NCBI GenBank assembly: GCA_021295695.1
Contig: JAGWBW010000002.1
Span: 1-64,000 of the forward strand
Direction of reading: 5' to 3'
Length of the DNA: 64,000 bases
Source of the DNA: Candidatus Latescibacterota bacterium
GTDB lineage: Bacteria; Latescibacterota; UBA2968
Made by a program: the position numbers and the translations under genes. The first letter of the stretch is position 1. The number at the start of each line of letters is the position of its first letter. Shown here piece after piece: positions 1 to 6,822 of the stretch. The notes beneath the pieces were generated by a model that saw only the letters and a list, made by a program, of their open reading frames with translations, ran no database searches and had not been told where the DNA came from.

Positions 1-35
1 TGCCCTGATAAATAAAAGAAAATGGAAATCACAGC

Positions 36-1298
36 ATGAATAGGGGCCTAAAATTTCTGGATCTTTTCGCGGGTGCTGGAGGGCTGTCCGAGGGATTTAT
101 ACAAGCGGGATTCGAGCCTGTCGCACACATTGAATCAGATAAAGCGGCCTGTTTTACTCTACGCACCCGGATGGCATACCACTATTTGAAGGACCGTGAC
201 CGGGTAGAACTGTATGCAGACTATCTGAATGGAATACTGAGCCGCCCAGATTTCTATGAACAGGTTCCGGAACGGATTATCAAATCGGTCATCAATGCTG
301 AGATAGGTGACGAAACACTGCCAGATATTTTCCGGCGGGTTGACGCTCTACTGGATAATTGTAGGCTTGATTTGATTGTCGGTGGACCTCCTTGCCAAGC
401 CTATTCCCTAATAGGACGTTCACGTGACTTGAATAGGATGAAGGGAGATAAGCGTAACTATCTGTATAACTATTACGCCAAATTTTTGAAGAGATACAAA
501 CCATTATACTTTGTCTTCGAAAATGTCACGGGTCTCCTATCTGCAAAAAATGAGGATGGCAGCCGCTATTTTGACGCCATGCTAAGCCTTTTTCGTGAAT
601 GTGGCTATAAAACCGATTTTCTGAATCTGTCAGCGGAGAATTATGGCGTTCTACAGAGACGAAAAAGAATAATTCTTGTCGGAAGAAGAGGTAAAGAGAC
701 TGATTTTTATCCAGAGCCAGACGAGTGGAATCCCGATACCTGTGTCAGAGAAATATTCTGCGATCTTCCCACTATTGCCGCAGGTGAAGGTGTCCCGGGG
801 CCATGTAATGTCGGACCATATCATGGACCATATCAGTATAAGGCAGGCATAAGAAATGACGATCTCCCGGTCACTTGGCATCAAGCGAGACCTAATACGG
901 AACAAGACCTTGAAATTTACCGGATCGCTGTTGATCAATGGAATAAAAAAAAGACTCGTCTGAATTACAATATGCTTCCGCCTCGTCTGAAAACACATAG
1001 ACACCGAAACTCGTTTCTGGATAGGTTCAAAGTCGTCGCTTGGGATCTGCCATTTTCTCATACCGTAGTTGCCCATATCGCCAAGGACGGTCACTATTAT
1101 ATTCATCCGGACGTTAATCAGAATCGATCAATCACACCCAGAGAGGCTGCAAGATTACAGACATTCCCGGATAGTTATTACTTTGAGAGCGTCAGAGATG
1201 TTCCAAGGCGCACGCCTGCTTTCCGTCAGATCGGCAATGCAGTGCCTGTGCTTCTGGCACGAAAAATAGCTGATAAATTGCAGGAGGTCTGGTTATGA
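36..1298 (+). CDS. C5-cytosine DNA methyltransferase (Dcm/HhaI class)
   Basis: This protein should methylate C5 of cytosine in a specific DNA site using S-adenosylmethionine. The ordered family motifs are visible: motif I FAGAGG near residue 11, motif IV PPCQ with the catalytic Cys at residue 120, motif VI ENV at 162-164, motif VIII QRRKR near 206, motif IX REAARLQTF near 368, and motif X QIGNAVP near 398. The length (420 aa) is normal for the family, and the target-recognition region should lie at roughly 220-360. Its last codons overlap the start of the next gene by 4 nt, so it is the first visible gene of an operon. No restriction nuclease is visible in the window, although the sequence upstream of base 1 is unknown. 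Function is well supported; the target site cannot be predicted. Confidence 0.95.
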   Translation: MNRGLKFLDLFAGAGGLSEGFIQAGFEPVAHIESDKAACFTLRTRMAYHYLKDRDRVELYADYLNGILSRPDFYEQVPERIIKSVINAEIGDETLPDIFRRVDALLDNCRLDLIVGGPPCQAYSLIGRSRDLNRMKGDKRNYLYNYYAKFLKRYKPLYFVFENVTGLLSAKNEDGSRYFDAMLSLFRECGYKTDFLNLSAENYGVLQRRKRIILVGRRGKETDFYPEPDEWNPDTCVREIFCDLPTIAAGEGVPGPCNVGPYHGPYQYKAGIRNDDLPVTWHQARPNTEQDLEIYRIAVDQWNKKKTRLNYNMLPPRLKTHRHRNSFLDRFKVVAWDLPFSHTVVAHIAKDGHYYIHPDVNQNRSITPREAARLQTFPDSYYFESVRDVPRRTPAFRQIGNAVPVLLARKIADKLQEVWL

Positions 1299-3448
1299 GC
1301 GCAAGCGGAACATACAAAATAAGACCGGCTGGTCGGCATATCCTGACCATCGGCCGCGATCTGATTCAGGATGTCTATGCGGCGGTCGTAGAACTGGTGA
1401 AGAACGCTTATGACGCCGATTCTCCTGATGTAAATATCAAATTTATGGCCAACCCTGACCATAGCGGATATTCCATCATTATCTCAGACCATGGTCACGG
1501 GATGTCCAGGGATACTGTCATTAACAAGTGGATGGTGCCGTCAACCCGAGACAAACTTGATCGGAGCACGAGTCCTTCCGGAAGGCTCATGCAGGGGCGT
1601 AAAGGGATAGGACGTTACGCGGCATCCCTTCTCGGCACAGACATGCTTCTCGAAACAGTCAGTGATGAAGGCGAGAAGACAACGGTCTATGTCGTGTGGG
1701 GCAACTTCGAGGATGCCGAATATCTGGATGACGTGGAAATCCTCATTGAAACCACTGAGGTATCCGAACCACCGGGTACCCAACTGACTATGGAAGGAGA
1801 TAGCGAACTTCTTGCTGGCTGGGACAAGGAACAGTTCAAAAAACTTCGTTTTGAACTAAAAAAATTGAAATCACCAGTGAATTCTGCTCTTAGCAGTGAT
1901 GACTTTTGTATAAACCTGAAAGTTGAAGGCTTTCCCGGTGTAGAGGACATCACTGAAACTATTGAGCCATTTCCTCTATTTGATCTCTTTGATTACAAGA
2001 TAGCTGGCAAAATTGGTGCTGATGGAAAAGGCACACTGACCTATTCATCGCAGAAAGTTCGTAACACCGCCGACGAGAGTATTCCTTTTGATTTTGGTGA
2101 GCCTACCGGATGCGGTGAACTTGATATTGATGTACGGGTGTATGATCGTGACAAGGATGCTATTGATTCTTTGATAGGACGTGGTCTTCAGGATGAATTC
2201 GGTGACTACGTCGGAAAACTCGAGGCAAGGCGGCTTCTCAACGCCTCTAACGGCATAGGTGTTTACCGAAACGGATTTCGTATCCGGCCGCTGGGTGATC
2301 CAGAATTTGATTGGTTGAGGCTGAACGAGCAGCGTATCCAGAATCCGTCGCGTAAGATCGGTAGCAACCAAGTAATAGGGTATGTGCAGATTCAGTCGGA
2401 TGAGCGATCTGGTCTGATTGAAAAGAGCGCGCGAGATGGACTCAGGGAAAATGCGGCCTTTGTTCAACTGAACAAAATCACCGCAAAGGTCATCGCTGAA
2501 CTCGAAACACGACGGTTTGAATTCAGAATGAAAGCAGGTCTGAGCAGGCCTGTTATCAAAGTCGAACGTGAATTGGAACGCCTTTTTTCATTCGATGAAC
2601 TGAAACGGGATGTTTTGGAAAGACTTACTGGATCCGGAATTGACCAAAGAACCTCTGATAAGATTATTGAAATCATCAGTGGGGAAGAGGAAGGCAAGAA
2701 CAAAATTGCTGATGAAATACGCCAAGCTGTTGCCATTTATCAGGGGCAGGCCACCTTGGGAAAAATTATTAACGTGATCCTTCATGAAGGCAGACGGCCA
2801 CTCAATTATTTCCGAAACCAGATACCAAACCTCCGATACTGGTACAAATCATTTCGGAAAACTGAGAATTTAAAAAATCTTGAGAAATCTCTGTCAATTG
2901 TTGAGGGCATAGGCATGAATGCAGAGTTTTTTGTCAATCTCTTCAACAAACTTGATCCTCTGGCAGCGGGGAAGCGCTCTAAGAAAGAGCCGCTTGCGCT
3001 GAAGAAAGAGATAGAAAACGTGCTTGCTGTCTTCGAACAAGGAATGAAGTCTCAGAAGGTAATCGCTGAAATTACAGGATCCGACGACTTTAGATTTTCC
3101 TCTTGGCGTCAGGATGTCAATGCGATTTTCACAAATCTTGTAGACAACAGTCTGTACTGGATGAGTGAAAAAAAAATTCTCAAACGAAAAATTATTATTG
3201 AACTCTCAACAGACGGTAATTCTCTACTGCATGTGGACTATCGAGACACCGGTCCAGGCATTGAACCACGCTTCATTGCAAACGAAGTGATTTTCGAACC
3301 CCATTTCTCCACCAAACCATCTGGTACTGGTCTGGGATTGGCAATTGCTGGTGAAGCCGCCGCACGGAACGATCTTGAATTGAAAGCTTTTGAGTCTGAA
3401 GAAGGAGCTTGGTTCAGGTTACAACCGAAAATGGAGGATGAGGAATGA
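1295..3448 (+). CDS. Dual-GHKL ATPase / histidine kinase-like protein
   Basis: This 717-residue protein carries two ATP-binding GHKL modules. The N-terminal one resembles HSP90/MutL-type folds: N-box ELVKNAYDAD near residues 34-43, G1 motif SDHGHGM near 64-70, and glycine-rich KGIGRYA near 103. The C-terminal one resembles a sensor kinase: N-box NLVDNSLYWM near 614, DTGPGI near 651, and STKPSGTGLGLAIA near 672. Before it, His497 lies in HEGRRPLNYF, which resembles a phosphoacceptor H-box. No membrane segment is evident, so it should be cytosolic. It overlaps the methyltransferase gene by 4 nt (ATGA) and the receiver-protein gene by 4 nt, so co-translation is likely. I infer that it senses a DNA or nucleotide state and phosphorylates the downstream receiver. 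It could instead act as a MutL/HSP90-like ATPase with a degenerate kinase part. Confidence 0.85.
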   Translation: MSASGTYKIRPAGRHILTIGRDLIQDVYAAVVELVKNAYDADSPDVNIKFMANPDHSGYSIIISDHGHGMSRDTVINKWMVPSTRDKLDRSTSPSGRLMQGRKGIGRYAASLLGTDMLLETVSDEGEKTTVYVVWGNFEDAEYLDDVEILIETTEVSEPPGTQLTMEGDSELLAGWDKEQFKKLRFELKKLKSPVNSALSSDDFCINLKVEGFPGVEDITETIEPFPLFDLFDYKIAGKIGADGKGTLTYSSQKVRNTADESIPFDFGEPTGCGELDIDVRVYDRDKDAIDSLIGRGLQDEFGDYVGKLEARRLLNASNGIGVYRNGFRIRPLGDPEFDWLRLNEQRIQNPSRKIGSNQVIGYVQIQSDERSGLIEKSARDGLRENAAFVQLNKITAKVIAELETRRFEFRMKAGLSRPVIKVERELERLFSFDELKRDVLERLTGSGIDQRTSDKIIEIISGEEEGKNKIADEIRQAVAIYQGQATLGKIINVILHEGRRPLNYFRNQIPNLRYWYKSFRKTENLKNLEKSLSIVEGIGMNAEFFVNLFNKLDPLAAGKRSKKEPLALKKEIENVLAVFEQGMKSQKVIAEITGSDDFRFSSWRQDVNAIFTNLVDNSLYWMSEKKILKRKIIIELSTDGNSLLHVDYRDTGPGIEPRFIANEVIFEPHFSTKPSGTGLGLAIAGEAAARNDLELKAFESEEGAWFRLQPKMEDEE

Positions 3449-4506
3449 GTGTATTGCGACTGCTTATAGTTGAGGATGATGAACAGGATCTATCTACCTG
3501 TAGAGATACTGTCGAAAGATACGAAAATGAAAAGCAGCGGGAGGTCAAACTTGTCGAATGTAAAGATGTCGAGGAAGCTTTCTCCGTGCTTGATAATTCC
3601 TTCGACGGTGCAATCATTGATCTGACACTTGGAAATGATAGTGATGCAGGCAATCAAGTTATACGGAAAATTGAAGATTCACAGTTTCGGATTCCAGTCT
3701 TTATTCTGACTGGAACCCCTGTCAATACGGATTTTGCACATATAAAAGTTTTCAAAAAAGGGGACCCTGGAGCAGGATACGATGATTTGTTGGACAGATT
3801 CTGGGATATTTATAACACGGGGCTTACTCGCATTATGGGGGGCAGGGGCATCATAGAACAAACATTGAGCCAAGTGTTTTTGAAAAACCTTATCCCTCAG
3901 ATAGATAAATGGATAGATTATGGTGAGGACAATTCTTCCAGAACCGAAAAGGCTCTTTTTCGGCACACGCTGAATCATCTGCTCCAGCTTCTTGATGATG
4001 ACGCAGACAGTTGCTTTCCCGAAGAAGTCTATCTGTACCCGCCGCTTAATGACGACATCCGGACTGGTAGCCTTGTTAAAGAAAAGGAAAGTGGGAAGTG
4101 GTTTGCTGTCATGAGTCCAGCCTGCGACCTTGTCGTGAGGGAAGATGGCAGCCGTAATACTGACAGGATTCTTATTGTCGAAGTTGATCTTGGAACGACG
4201 TTATTTCCATGGTTTAATGATACAAATCTGAGTAAAACCAGAAAGGGAGAGTTGAAACGAGCGTTTGGGAACAACAAATCAGCCTATCATCACTGGCTTC
4301 CTAAGACGGATTTCTTTGAAGGCGGGTTCCTCAATTTTAGAAAACTTTTCACTTGGGAAATTGGGCAATTCCAAGAAAAATTTCACACACCTCCTGAAAT
4401 ACAAATCTCGTTATCTTTTGTGAAGGATATTGTGGCGCGTTTTTCATCATACTACGCTCGTCAGGGCCAGCCAGATATTGATTTTGACAGATTTATCAAC
4501 TCTTGA
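3445..4506 (+). CDS. Response-regulator receiver protein with unknown C-terminal domain
   Basis: Residues 1 to about 115 form a receiver domain: acidic pair near residues 11-12, phosphoacceptor Asp59 in the AIIDLTL strand, Thr89 in FILTG, and conserved Lys near 104. Residues of about 120-353 match no output domain I recognise: no helix-turn-helix, GGDEF, HD or PP2C signature. This part has a conserved-looking SPACDLV motif near 224-230. The start overlaps the upstream kinase-like gene by 4 nt, so the pair should be made in a fixed ratio. I infer that phosphorylation by the partner switches an unknown activity of the C-terminal half, possibly an effector. The receiver call is strong; the effector role is a guess from context. 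Confidence 0.8.
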   Translation: MSVLRLLIVEDDEQDLSTCRDTVERYENEKQREVKLVECKDVEEAFSVLDNSFDGAIIDLTLGNDSDAGNQVIRKIEDSQFRIPVFILTGTPVNTDFAHIKVFKKGDPGAGYDDLLDRFWDIYNTGLTRIMGGRGIIEQTLSQVFLKNLIPQIDKWIDYGEDNSSRTEKALFRHTLNHLLQLLDDDADSCFPEEVYLYPPLNDDIRTGSLVKEKESGKWFAVMSPACDLVVREDGSRNTDRILIVEVDLGTTLFPWFNDTNLSKTRKGELKRAFGNNKSAYHHWLPKTDFFEGGFLNFRKLFTWEIGQFQEKFHTPPEIQISLSFVKDIVARFSSYYARQGQPDIDFDRFINS

Positions 4507-4578
4507 AATAGGCGTATAGGAAGTTGCACCCCACCCCCATCTCACCGCATCCCATATCTTCTTCTCGAATCGCGTAAT

Positions 4579-4749
4579 TCATGTAGCAAACCTTGCGAGT
4601 GTCCCTTTTCCTCTTGCTGTCATAAATTCTGAGCCTCGCACAGCGTCTTCGGTTCCAGCATTCTCAAGCAGACCGTGAATTTCGTGCTTGAGTGAGGTTC
4701 GCTCCTCATCCGGATATTCGCCGGTCGTACCTGTATGATAAGTTCTCAA
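4579..4749 (-). CDS. Possible small ORF or gene remnant (56 aa, TTG start)
   Basis: A short open frame on the minus strand could encode 56 residues rich in charged amino acids (about residues 12-24 hold Pro, Asp, Glu, Arg, Lys and His). The only start in frame is a TTG, and a stop lies a few codons upstream. The predicted protein matches no family I recognise. It sits between the 3' end of the methyltransferase operon and a DUF2442 gene on the same strand, about 20 nt downstream of the latter. It could be a small co-transcribed gene, the tail of a broken gene, or chance. Composition looks protein-like rather than random, but support is weak. Confidence 0.25.
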   Translation of the reverse strand: MRTYHTGTTGEYPDEERTSLKHEIHGLLENAGTEDAVRGSEFMTARGKGTLARFAT

Positions 4750-4770
4750 CCTATTTCCTCATCTTCGGTC

Positions 4771-5037
4771 TTATTGTCTTTGGATAACTTCGGACGCAAG
4801 AGCGGTCGGCTGGCTTTCCAGATAGAGCGTGTCATAGCTCAGATCTAACTCGCCTGGCCACTCCACTGAACCTGCTACTACACGGACTGCCTGAAAGGCA
4901 GCGAGATTCTGAAGGCGCACAAAGACACCGCGCTGGAGATAGGGCTTCACATCGAATATCCGTTGCTCACCATTCTCAAATATTAACTCCAGTTGGTAAT
5001 CCTCGAGCGGGCGTACCTGCTTGACATAGGGATTCAT
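4771..5037 (-). CDS. DUF2442 domain protein
   Basis: This 88-residue protein matches the pattern of DUF2442: a basic N-terminus, a strand with LELIFENGE, FDVKPYL, and the closing VEWPGELDLSYDTLY. Family members are small, often lie beside toxin-antitoxin or mobile genes, and have no established biochemical role. The gene begins 18 nt downstream of the end of a secreted-protein gene on the same strand and may be transcribed with it. Nothing in the sequence shows a catalytic residue or an export signal. The family call is fairly secure; the function is unknown. Confidence 0.75.
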   Translation of the reverse strand: MNPYVKQVRPLEDYQLELIFENGEQRIFDVKPYLQRGVFVRLQNLAAFQAVRVVAGSVEWPGELDLSYDTLYLESQPTALASEVIQRQ

Positions 5038-5054
5038 TTTAATCTCTCAAGCCA

Positions 5055-5930
5055 TCATCTATCACCCGATAATTTCGCATACTCAATTTCCAATGGCTGG
5101 GTGATTAGGTTTGTTAATTCCAGGAGATCGGGCCTGCCGGGAGGGACGTCTTTCTCCATCTTCCCATCGGGATACACGGTTACTGTGTCTATCCTTTTTA
5201 TGAATCCCTTTTTTGCTGTCGCTCGATTGATCTGGAAGCCGTCTTTTGAAATTGCCATGCGAGTCTGTACAATGCGTCCTTCGCCGATAATGCGAAAAAG
5301 AAAACCCAGGATGCCGGATGTTGGGCGGCCTGTAAGCCCTTCTATCTCATCATAGATGACCCAATCCCCAAAATCCAGCAATCGGTAGGTCATCACCCGC
5401 TGATTGGTTACTTTGAGATTCGGCGTTGAGAGCGTATCCAGATACGAATACCGATCCGGCTTGCCGGGCTGGTCCTTCCACCAAACTCGTACATTTACTG
5501 CCAGTTCTGGCGTTGGGGCTTTCACTATCTCTCGGATGACCCGATCTACCCGATAATCTACCTCCGTAATCTGTTTGTATTGATAGGATAACCGCGCGTA
5601 CTGGGGCATCGCGTCTTCTGTGCGTGCGGTCACTTCCATAAATGCCTGAAACCAGTTCTCGTACCCGATAAATAGCGGCAGCCCCTGCGGATCGCGCGCT
5701 CTTGCCTTTTGCGCGAGATAAAGTATCATATCCCCCTGAAACCGTGCGCCATTGGTCGTTGCTGTCGGATCGTAATCACCACACTGCCGCATCGCCTCTA
5801 CGATCTCTGCCCGACTCACCACCTGATACCCAGGGCGCACATCGTTTGCACATGCTGGCCGATCCAGAAAAAAGAAAAAACAAAGGAGGGTTGCGATTCT
5901 CAACCCCCCTTTGTTGTGAAAGCTCGTCAT
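5055..5930 (-). CDS. Secreted protein of unknown function (paralog A)
   Basis: I do not recognise this 291-residue protein. The N-terminus has a basic stretch, a hydrophobic core rich in Leu, Cys and Phe, and a small-residue region near ACAND at about 27-31, which fits a Sec signal peptide, so the product is probably periplasmic or outer-membrane associated. The body has features also found in the neighbouring gene: WWKDQPGKPDRYSY, a YRLLDFGDW strand, TRMAISKDG, and VTVYPDGKMEKDVPP. The two proteins are clearly homologous from end to end, roughly three quarters identical by eye. The layout is a tandem duplication with only 13 nt between the genes. The alternating strands suggest a beta-rich fold resembling outer-membrane lipoprotein-sorting proteins, but that is only an impression. 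Confidence 0.8.
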   Translation of the reverse strand: MTSFHNKGGLRIATLLCFFFFLDRPACANDVRPGYQVVSRAEIVEAMRQCGDYDPTATTNGARFQGDMILYLAQKARARDPQGLPLFIGYENWFQAFMEVTARTEDAMPQYARLSYQYKQITEVDYRVDRVIREIVKAPTPELAVNVRVWWKDQPGKPDRYSYLDTLSTPNLKVTNQRVMTYRLLDFGDWVIYDEIEGLTGRPTSGILGFLFRIIGEGRIVQTRMAISKDGFQINRATAKKGFIKRIDTVTVYPDGKMEKDVPPGRPDLLELTNLITQPLEIEYAKLSGDR

Positions 5931-5943
5931 GTTATCCCTTTAT

Positions 5944-6822
5944 CTATCGCCAAATAGCTTTCACATAATCAATTTCCAGTGGCTGCATGATTCTCTTTTC
6001 CAGTTCCAAGAGATCTGGTCGGTCAGGTGGGACATCTTTCTGCATTGTTCCATCGGGATACACCGTCACGGTGGTCATTTTTTTTACGAATCCCTTTTTT
6101 GCTGTCGCTCGCATGACCTGGAGACCATCCTTTGAAACTGCCATGCGAGTCTGTAAAATGCGGCTTTCGCCGAGAACCCGAAAAAGAATACCCAGTACGC
6201 CGGATGTTGGGCGCGCTGTAACGCCATCGAACTCATCATAGGCAATCCAATCGCCAAAATCCAGCAATCGATAGGATATCACCTGGTAATTGGTTAATCT
6301 CAAATTCGGCGACGAAAGTGTATCCCTGTAAGAATACCGATCCGGCTTGCCGGGCTGGTCCTTCCACCAAACTCGTACATTTGTTGCCAGTTCTGGCGTT
6401 GGGGCTTCCTTTACCTCGTCTATGACGCGATCTACCCGATAATCTATTTCTGTATCCTGTTTGTATTGATAGGATAACTGCGCGTACTGGGGCATCGCGT
6501 CTTCCGTGCGTGCGAGCACTTCCATATACGCCCGAAACCAGTCCTCATATCCGATAAATAGCGGCAGCCCCTGCGGATCGCGATCTCTTGCCTTCCGCGC
6601 GAGATAACACACCACATCCGCCTGAAACCGCGCGCTATTGGTCGTCGCTGTCGGGTCGTAATCGCTATACTGCCGCATCGCCTCTATCACCTCTGCCCGA
6701 CTGACCACCTGATACCCCGGACGCGCTGTATCTGCCTCGACACATGCTGGACGATACAGTGATAAGAAAAAACAGAGGAAGATTGCGACTTTCAACCCTC
6801 CCCTGTAGTGAAAGCTCGTCAT
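5944..6822 (-). CDS. Secreted protein of unknown function (paralog B)
   Basis: This 292-residue protein is the upstream copy of a tandem pair. It shares with its neighbour the signal-peptide-like N-terminus (starting MTSFH), WWKDQPGKPDRYSY, YRLLDFGDW, RPTSGVLGILFR, and the VTVYPDG segment. The two upstream regions are also alike, so the duplication included the translation start. Divergence is spread evenly, and both frames are intact, which suggests that both copies are functional. The gene lies 20 nt downstream of the coiled-coil protein gene and is probably co-transcribed with it. No catalytic signature was found; export is inferred from the N-terminus only. Confidence 0.8.
   Translation of the reverse strand: MTSFHYRGGLKVAIFLCFFLSLYRPACVEADTARPGYQVVSRAEVIEAMRQYSDYDPTATTNSARFQADVVCYLARKARDRDPQGLPLFIGYEDWFRAYMEVLARTEDAMPQYAQLSYQYKQDTEIDYRVDRVIDEVKEAPTPELATNVRVWWKDQPGKPDRYSYRDTLSSPNLRLTNYQVISYRLLDFGDWIAYDEFDGVTARPTSGVLGILFRVLGESRILQTRMAVSKDGLQVMRATAKKGFVKKMTTVTVYPDGTMQKDVPPDRPDLLELEKRIMQPLEIDYVKAIWR

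Follow-up and report, generated by a model that had tools for sequence, protein, structure and literature searches.

A methyltransferase, dual-GHKL kinase and receiver operon of a Latescibacterota bacterium: a candidate mobile defence unit gated by phosphotransfer

A three-gene operon encoding a C5 DNA methyltransferase (MT), a soluble sensor kinase with two GHKL ATPase modules (HK) and a receiver protein (RR) lies at one end of the 64,000-nucleotide stretch of Candidatus Latescibacterota DNA analyzed here (the window). The trio is a real, conserved and probably defensive system. The reading that we favor, with a probability of about 50%, is that of a compact and mobile defence unit, similar to restriction-modification, in which His-to-Asp phosphotransfer gates the response. 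The composition of the trio is already published in outline, and the papers found report no functional test of any member. The new observation is that methyltransferase class and nuclease are swapped around an unchanging kinase-receiver pair, and that relatives are located inside or beside DISARM operons.

Operon layout and domain architecture

Window positions 36-4506 form a single operon. Its three open reading frames were confirmed as delimited in an initial annotation, which had described them as one translational unit: MT and HK share 4 nt (ATGA), as do HK and RR, and the HK start is preceded by AGGAGG, a purine-rich sequence for ribosome binding. The window edge is also the edge of the contig (C50) and lies 35 bases 5′ of MT, so the upstream side of MT can be read only from a relative. 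The features are as follows.

36..1298, plus strand: C5 DNA methyltransferase (MT), 420 aa, DrmMII-like (Pfam DNA_methylase, PADLOC DrmMII, motifs)
1295..3448, plus strand: dual-GHKL sensor kinase (HK), 717 aa, soluble (HATPase_c_3 and HATPase_c, ATGA overlap, AlphaFold2)
1295..2494, plus strand: MORC/MutL-type GHKL ATPase with S5-like transducer, HK residues 1-400 (Foldseek, motifs)
2753..2965, plus strand: DHp-like two-helix hairpin, HK residues 487-557 (alignment and helix pair in the model)
3107..3427, plus strand: histidine-kinase CA domain, HK residues 605-711 (HATPase_c 1.4e-16, Foldseek HK853 3e-11)
3445..4506, plus strand: receiver protein (RR), 353 aa (ATGA overlap with HK, REC fold)
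3445..3819, plus strand: receiver domain, RR residues 1-125 (D11, D59, T89, Foldseek)
3820..4503, plus strand: output domain, RR residues 126-353 (conserved in 17 relatives; motifs TG...PACDL and KD..xRFSxYYxRQGQP)
4644/4645 (4644..4645), no strand: right edge of the mobile block that carries the trio (congener comparison)

The MT is complete (Pfam DNA_methylase, 9.5e-58) and matches PADLOC DrmMII (PDLC02649) with 546 bits over residues 3-419. Its motifs, PCQ with the catalytic Cys120 (window positions ~393-395), ENV, QxRxR and the C-terminal QIGNAVP, are invariant in 13 sequences, and their intactness suggests an active enzyme. No restriction endonuclease fold was found in MT, HK or RR, which counts against the favored reading; an HNH_2 domain was detected solely in two relatives (L012 and L016).

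In HK, an N-terminal HATPase_c_3 (8.1e-17) and a C-terminal HATPase_c (1.4e-16) are joined in one protein. AlphaFold2 models of HK and RR were of moderate confidence (pLDDT 78-79, pTM 0.55-0.58; HK, pLDDT 79 and pTM 0.55 from 18 input sequences; RR, pTM 0.58 from 15). Foldseek matched HK residues 1-400 to MORC3, MORC2, SMCHD1, MutL and Hsp90 (E ~1e-12 to 1e-11), that is, to the MORC-like GHKL plus S5 ATPase fold, and the motif residues of ELVKNAYDAD, DHGHGM and GRKGIGRY in this part are invariant. Residues ~450-711 matched the two-domain HK853 kinase core, with HK853-RR468 complexes among the matches. The CA domain contains the N (NLVDNS), G1 (DTGPGI), F (FEPHFSTK) and G2 (GTGLGLAIA) boxes. 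His497 (codon 2783-2785), in the HEGRRP box, is the candidate phospho-acceptor; H497, E498, G499 and R500, as well as both GHKL motif sets, are invariant in a 15-sequence alignment. The Pfam HEF_HK model did not match the DHp-like hairpin.

Pfam Response_reg matched RR at 2.3e-4, under the curated cut-off. This weak call was settled by AlphaFold2 and Foldseek, which give residues 1-125 a CheY-like receiver fold (CpxR, PhoB and PhoP, E ~1e-5). D11 of the acidic pocket and the candidate phospho-acceptor Asp59 (codon 3619-3621) are invariant in the 15-sequence alignment, and T89 is at least 90% conserved. The pair thus displays the canonical two-component features: a conserved His, CA boxes and a receiver Asp. 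The domains named in the initial annotation (a C5 methyltransferase, an HSP90/MutL-like ATPase with a kinase module, a receiver) are borne out by the agreement of Pfam, AlphaFold2 and Foldseek, as are its choices of His497 and Asp59 by their invariance. Structure prediction of the C-terminal half, which it had suggested, assigned an HK853 core to HK and left the RR output domain without a PDB match. That domain had no match by PDB fold or sequence, in PHROGs or in Pfam, and no DNA-binding output was recognized in RR by Pfam or by PDB fold and sequence; a BFVD search gave a convincing match for the receiver part alone. Weak Pfam matches in RR relatives to OKR_DC_1_N, RE_XamI and SpoIISA were dismissed as chance or receiver-fold cross-matches.

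Conservation, mobility and genomic context

A genome-contig search yielded 12 kinase loci with 46-100% identity, in Latescibacteria, Chlorobi, Nitrospirae, Kiritimatiellae, Bacteroidota, Desulfobacteraceae, SAR324, Rodentibacter, Methanoperedenaceae and Bryobacterales. The order of the trio is kept across phyla, in bacteria and one archaeon: RR is directly 3′ of HK in all 12 loci, and MT is directly 5′ of HK, giving the order MT-HK-RR, in 11, the twelfth (L012) being at a contig end. The check for synteny in other genomes proposed in the initial annotation therefore came out positive. Protein distances measured in 16 loci are strongly correlated (r 0.93 for MT-HK, 0.87 for MT-RR and 0.90 for HK-RR), and none of 2000 permutations in a Mantel test was as high. 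Because the gene distances correlate, MT, HK and RR move as a unit, and chance adjacency is ruled out by synteny together with this correlation. In each of the three enzymatic modules the catalytic residues do not vary among sequences from different phyla, which we count in favor of the defence reading. A search of E. coli for a close copy of the trio matched an IS3 transposase and nothing else, and isolated phages gave three weak partial matches, the longest of 27.6% identity.

Conjugative plasmids of Campylobacter carry a form with inverted MT. An intact HK-RR pair on an Enterobacter mori plasmid (L025, NZ_CP119171.1, 7001-10223) has no adjacent methyltransferase; IS3-like transposase sequence is present 5′ of this pair, which counts against the favored reading. 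Carriage on the Campylobacter plasmids and on viral contigs would fit an addiction module that kills cells losing the methyltransferase and so stabilizes a plasmid or prophage instead of defending against phage, and restriction-modification systems have been discussed as possible selfish elements (PMC8011034). We consider this explanation very unlikely, given the chromosomal location in Latescibacteria and the E. mori pair, which is not obviously toxic without an adjacent methyltransferase, although a chromosomal enzyme might substitute.

Window positions 1-4644 recur with 99.2% identity in the complete 6.5-Mb genome of a Latescibacteria congener (OX638329.1; G037, L009), where the flanking genes are less alike (93-96%) and lie some 10 kb more distant. 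The right boundary is sharp: beyond position 4644 the match is either lost or shifted by 282 bp, and positions 4645-5132 continue into the trio-less congener G034. The trio is present in 2 of the 11 genomes of the genus; the other nine have the flanking genes. Where the slot can be read in congeners, it holds an AbiLi-like ATPase (G034), Type I restriction-modification-like genes (G037) or long ORFs sharing the same start (G032 and G033). The slot that the trio occupies in its Latescibacteria host is a defence slot of variable content. That the two congeners have separate insertion sites was considered and dropped: both sites map to one chromosomal region, with about 10 kb between them.

Several other genes were noted around the slot. 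Directly 5′ of MT in the complete congener (L009, 6558-6749) is a fragment, 63 aa long, of a different GHKL protein (GRPVMGRKGIGKLS), possibly a remnant of an older defence gene. A small DUF2442 gene beside the trio (window 4771-5037) also occurs in the trio-less congeners G034 and G035. Window positions 5055-6822 encode two tandem paralogous secreted-type proteins of 291 and 292 aa, the copy number of which appears to vary across the genus.

Vsr was absent from the window and from both trio-bearing Latescibacteria genomes, in a genome search whose controls gave matches. DrmA, too, had no match, whether in the window, in the genome it comes from or in the complete congener, the empty genome search having been run without a positive control, and HNH, HsdR, McrBC and Drm queries did not match the window. 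Since no Vsr, DrmA or other queried nuclease or Drm gene was matched, the trio appears to stand alone in these two genomes, and its near-identical copy in a complete congener without detectable Vsr or DrmA suggests that three genes suffice.

In the neighborhood of trio relatives, Type I restriction-modification, McrBC and DrmA/DrmB genes were found, in keeping with the defence-island company noted in the initial annotation. It counts against the defence reading that such company is common to many unrelated genes, and the family could be regulatory. Class 2 DISARM consists of DrmE, DrmA, DrmB and DrmMII. In a Chlorobiaceae MAG (L010) the trio and Vsr adjoin DrmB and DrmA. In two Latescibacteria-group genomes, G033 of the same genus (L135/L138) and G022 of the same order (L136/L139), DrmE-like, DrmA and DrmB genes lie 3′ of HK-RR-MT in the same orientation; these HK-RR-MT genes are a more distant set, with a C5 MT, and DrmE_C of the G033 array was confirmed by Pfam. 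The DISARM linkage thus comprises only 3 loci in 2 lineages, and among the open-licence literature no paper joining DISARM with histidine kinases was found. Together with the DrmMII match of MT, its best, these arrangements could mean that the trio is a detached regulatory and modification half of class 2 DISARM, dependent on DrmA/DrmB. We regard this as highly improbable: DISARM genes are missing from most trio loci, and the window trio, though its MT is DrmMII-like and its relatives lie inside or beside drmE/A/B, shows no match to the DrmA/DrmB core. A complete DISARM was rejected for the window genome and the complete congener on the same DrmA search, made without a positive control.

About two thirds of close trio relatives have Vsr. 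In G022 (L136, 11495-12160) an HhH-GPD glycosylase/base-excision repair gene is found by the C5 MT, in the usual place of Vsr. Deamination of 5-methylcytosine produces T:G mismatches. Because the HhH-GPD gene takes the place of Vsr and fits repair of such mismatches, the products of adjacent Vsr or HhH-GPD genes most likely serve as partners that repair deaminated 5-methylcytosine and are not the cutters. Vsr was rejected as the cognate restriction nuclease, being absent here and replaced in L136.

In viral contigs the kinase alignment retrieved 65 loci, viral status being as assigned by IMG/VR; many of these contigs are probably prophages. In 75 of 79 distinct kinase loci the next ORF 3′ of the kinase is on the same strand, and a strict receiver-like acidic-pair motif was present in 68 of 82 downstream ORFs, compared to 29 of 710 background ORFs. 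By sequence match, a C5 methyltransferase is found beside the pair in 39 of the 79 loci and an Eco57I/N6-type enzyme in 20 more. Ten further upstream genes were all of N4/N6 or Eco57I type by Pfam, one of them (L083) below the curated cut-off, so that the pair adjoins a DNA methyltransferase of some class in about 69 of 79 loci. Nearby nuclease genes vary as well and include those for HNH endonucleases and metallo-beta-lactamase-fold proteins. Three viral contigs (L055, 5731-6738; L059, 5517-6143; L066, 10957-11529) have metallo-beta-lactamase-fold or HNH genes 3′ of the pair and N6/Eco57I methyltransferases close by. The strongest argument that the pair would regulate a restriction-type response is this swapping of methyltransferase and nuclease around it. 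More tentatively, with the odds somewhat against it, the trio may belong to a large and mostly unrecognized class of phospho-gated restriction systems, in which a MORC-head kinase and its receiver are plugged into many modification and nuclease cassettes, with C5, N4/N6 or Eco57I methyltransferases and HNH, metallo-beta-lactamase-fold or DISARM effectors, an ATP-driven DNA clamp detects non-self DNA and His-Asp phosphotransfer then switches restriction on.

Relation to published systems

The initial annotation knew of no described system with this composition. In fact, Bellieny-Rabelo, Pretorius and Moleleki (2021) reported, in 628 strains, a C5 methylase combined with a HATPase_c_3/HEF_HK/HATPase_c kinase and a Response_reg_2 regulator (PMC8011034), and Iyer (2008) had associated paraMORC GHKL ATPases with the Dcm, Vsr and HNH genes of restriction-modification neighborhoods (PMC2292703). 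The HEF_HK/Response_reg_2 system resembles the window trio in its HATPase_c_3, DHp and HATPase_c kinase, its adjacent regulator and a C5 methylase 5′ of the kinase. At 717 aa the window kinase is shorter than the kinases of the three examined HEF-type loci, which have about 1000 aa; the window RR has 353 aa and its counterparts 555-631 aa. Vsr, often present in the published system, is most commonly located 3′ of the regulator (PMC8011034), in contrast to the Vsr-less window and trio-bearing genomes.

The published family models do not detect the window branch. PF19191 (HEF_HK) had no match to window proteins at E<=1 and none over the cut-off in four trio-bearing genomes, while a positive control (L107) matched at 6.3e-7. 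PF19192 (Response_reg_2) had no match in window proteins, in close-relative genomes or in 15 RR relatives; its positive controls (L105, L143, L144 and L146) matched. Plain membership in the published family was rejected on these grounds. Searched with a profile of the output domain alone (RR residues 126-353), 399 genomes from the Rodentibacter phylum yielded three full relatives plus four weaker matches; of the latter, the three at E ~1e-3 with 590-631 aa were all Response_reg_2 proteins. Aligned by hhalign with three receiver sets, the output domain gave P values of 1.1e-8, 4.8e-6 and 4.2e-5, compared to more than 0.1 for controls. The order of motifs, TG..V..PxCD followed by an R-x-S-x-Y-x-x-R-x-G-like end, is common to these sets, and Response_reg_2 proteins as well as other receivers carry this domain in their C-terminal parts. 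Since the output domain is homologous though the Pfam models miss it, the window trio can be placed, as judged from sequence, as a distant sister branch of the published system. A match to a described system, which the initial annotation had named as a possible refutation, is therefore found in composition and not in the family models.

According to its authors, the HEF_HK/Response_reg_2 system may control restriction-modification systems, and a member of a related Pectobacterium set is up-regulated during potato infection (PMC8011034). With its canonical two-component parts, the trio could accordingly be a regulatory or epigenetic system in which the kinase senses methylation or damage and RR alters expression with no direct role in defence. 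We find this unlikely, as RR has no known DNA-binding output and a conserved regulon is hardly expected of a small mobile unit found in genomes as varied as those above, an archaeon included.

Like the window HK, paraMORC proteins have an N-terminal GHKL and S5 head and adjoin Dcm, Vsr and HNH genes; the HK adds a full histidine-kinase core and a receiver partner, and receivers are unmentioned in that work (PMC2292703). VcSduA of Shedu, an experimentally validated defence ATPase-nuclease (GHKL plus PD-(D/E)xK), also joins a GHKL head to a defence output, but it has no methyltransferase and no phosphorelay and its output is a known nuclease (PMC12137116). This precedent and the MORC/MutL match of the HK head raise the possibility of an ATP-gated clamp effector working without phosphotransfer, as in GHKL-Shedu or paraMORC, with His497 and Asp59 merely stabilizing the complex. 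Such an arrangement is unlikely: an invariant full HK853-like core and the acidic pocket of the receiver exceed the needs of a structural role alone, and a receiver ORF is found 3′ of nearly every kinase.

MZA systems combine Z1, MutL-like and AIPR proteins with a C5 methyltransferase. They share a MutL-like ATPase and a C5 methyltransferase with the trio, which, unlike them, includes no Z1 or AIPR genes. On a Hymenobacter plasmid (L026, NZ_CP043645.1, 5996-10183), DUF3883, another HATPase_c_3 protein and a protein with a Z1 domain come after the trio, an arrangement that resembles MZA-type systems.

Proposed mechanism and implications

In the favored reading, that of a phosphotransfer-gated defence unit, the C5 methyltransferase, judged by its intact motifs, would mark host DNA. 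HK would dimerize through its MORC/MutL-type GHKL-S5 head, and this head would serve as a clamp, driven by ATP, which samples DNA and closes when the DNA is non-self, as recognized by a missing mark or by an abnormal replicating or ended state; the fold and the linkage to a methyltransferase point to this step. Closure would be transmitted through a coiled coil to the HK853-like core, which is predicted, since all of its boxes (H, N, G1, F, G2) are intact, to phosphorylate His497. Strict gene pairing, the distance correlation and intact sites are consistent with subsequent transfer of the phosphate to Asp59 of the cognate receiver. The phosphorylated RR may then switch the PxCDL/RQGQP output domain, which could be the effector itself or recruit one that depends on the locus: an HNH or metallo-beta-lactamase-fold protein, DISARM DrmAB or host nucleases. 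The logic of methylating self, sensing and switching set out in the initial annotation is thus plausible.

If phosphotransfer does gate restriction, standard bacterial signaling chemistry would control an immune nuclease, and His497 and Asp59 would provide a clean mutable test of when a DNA-modification defence fires. Eukaryotic MORC relatives act in gene silencing by a mechanism that is unsettled; the proposed role would assign a function to bacterial MORC-like heads. Because current Pfam models miss this branch, defence annotation undercounts the trio family.
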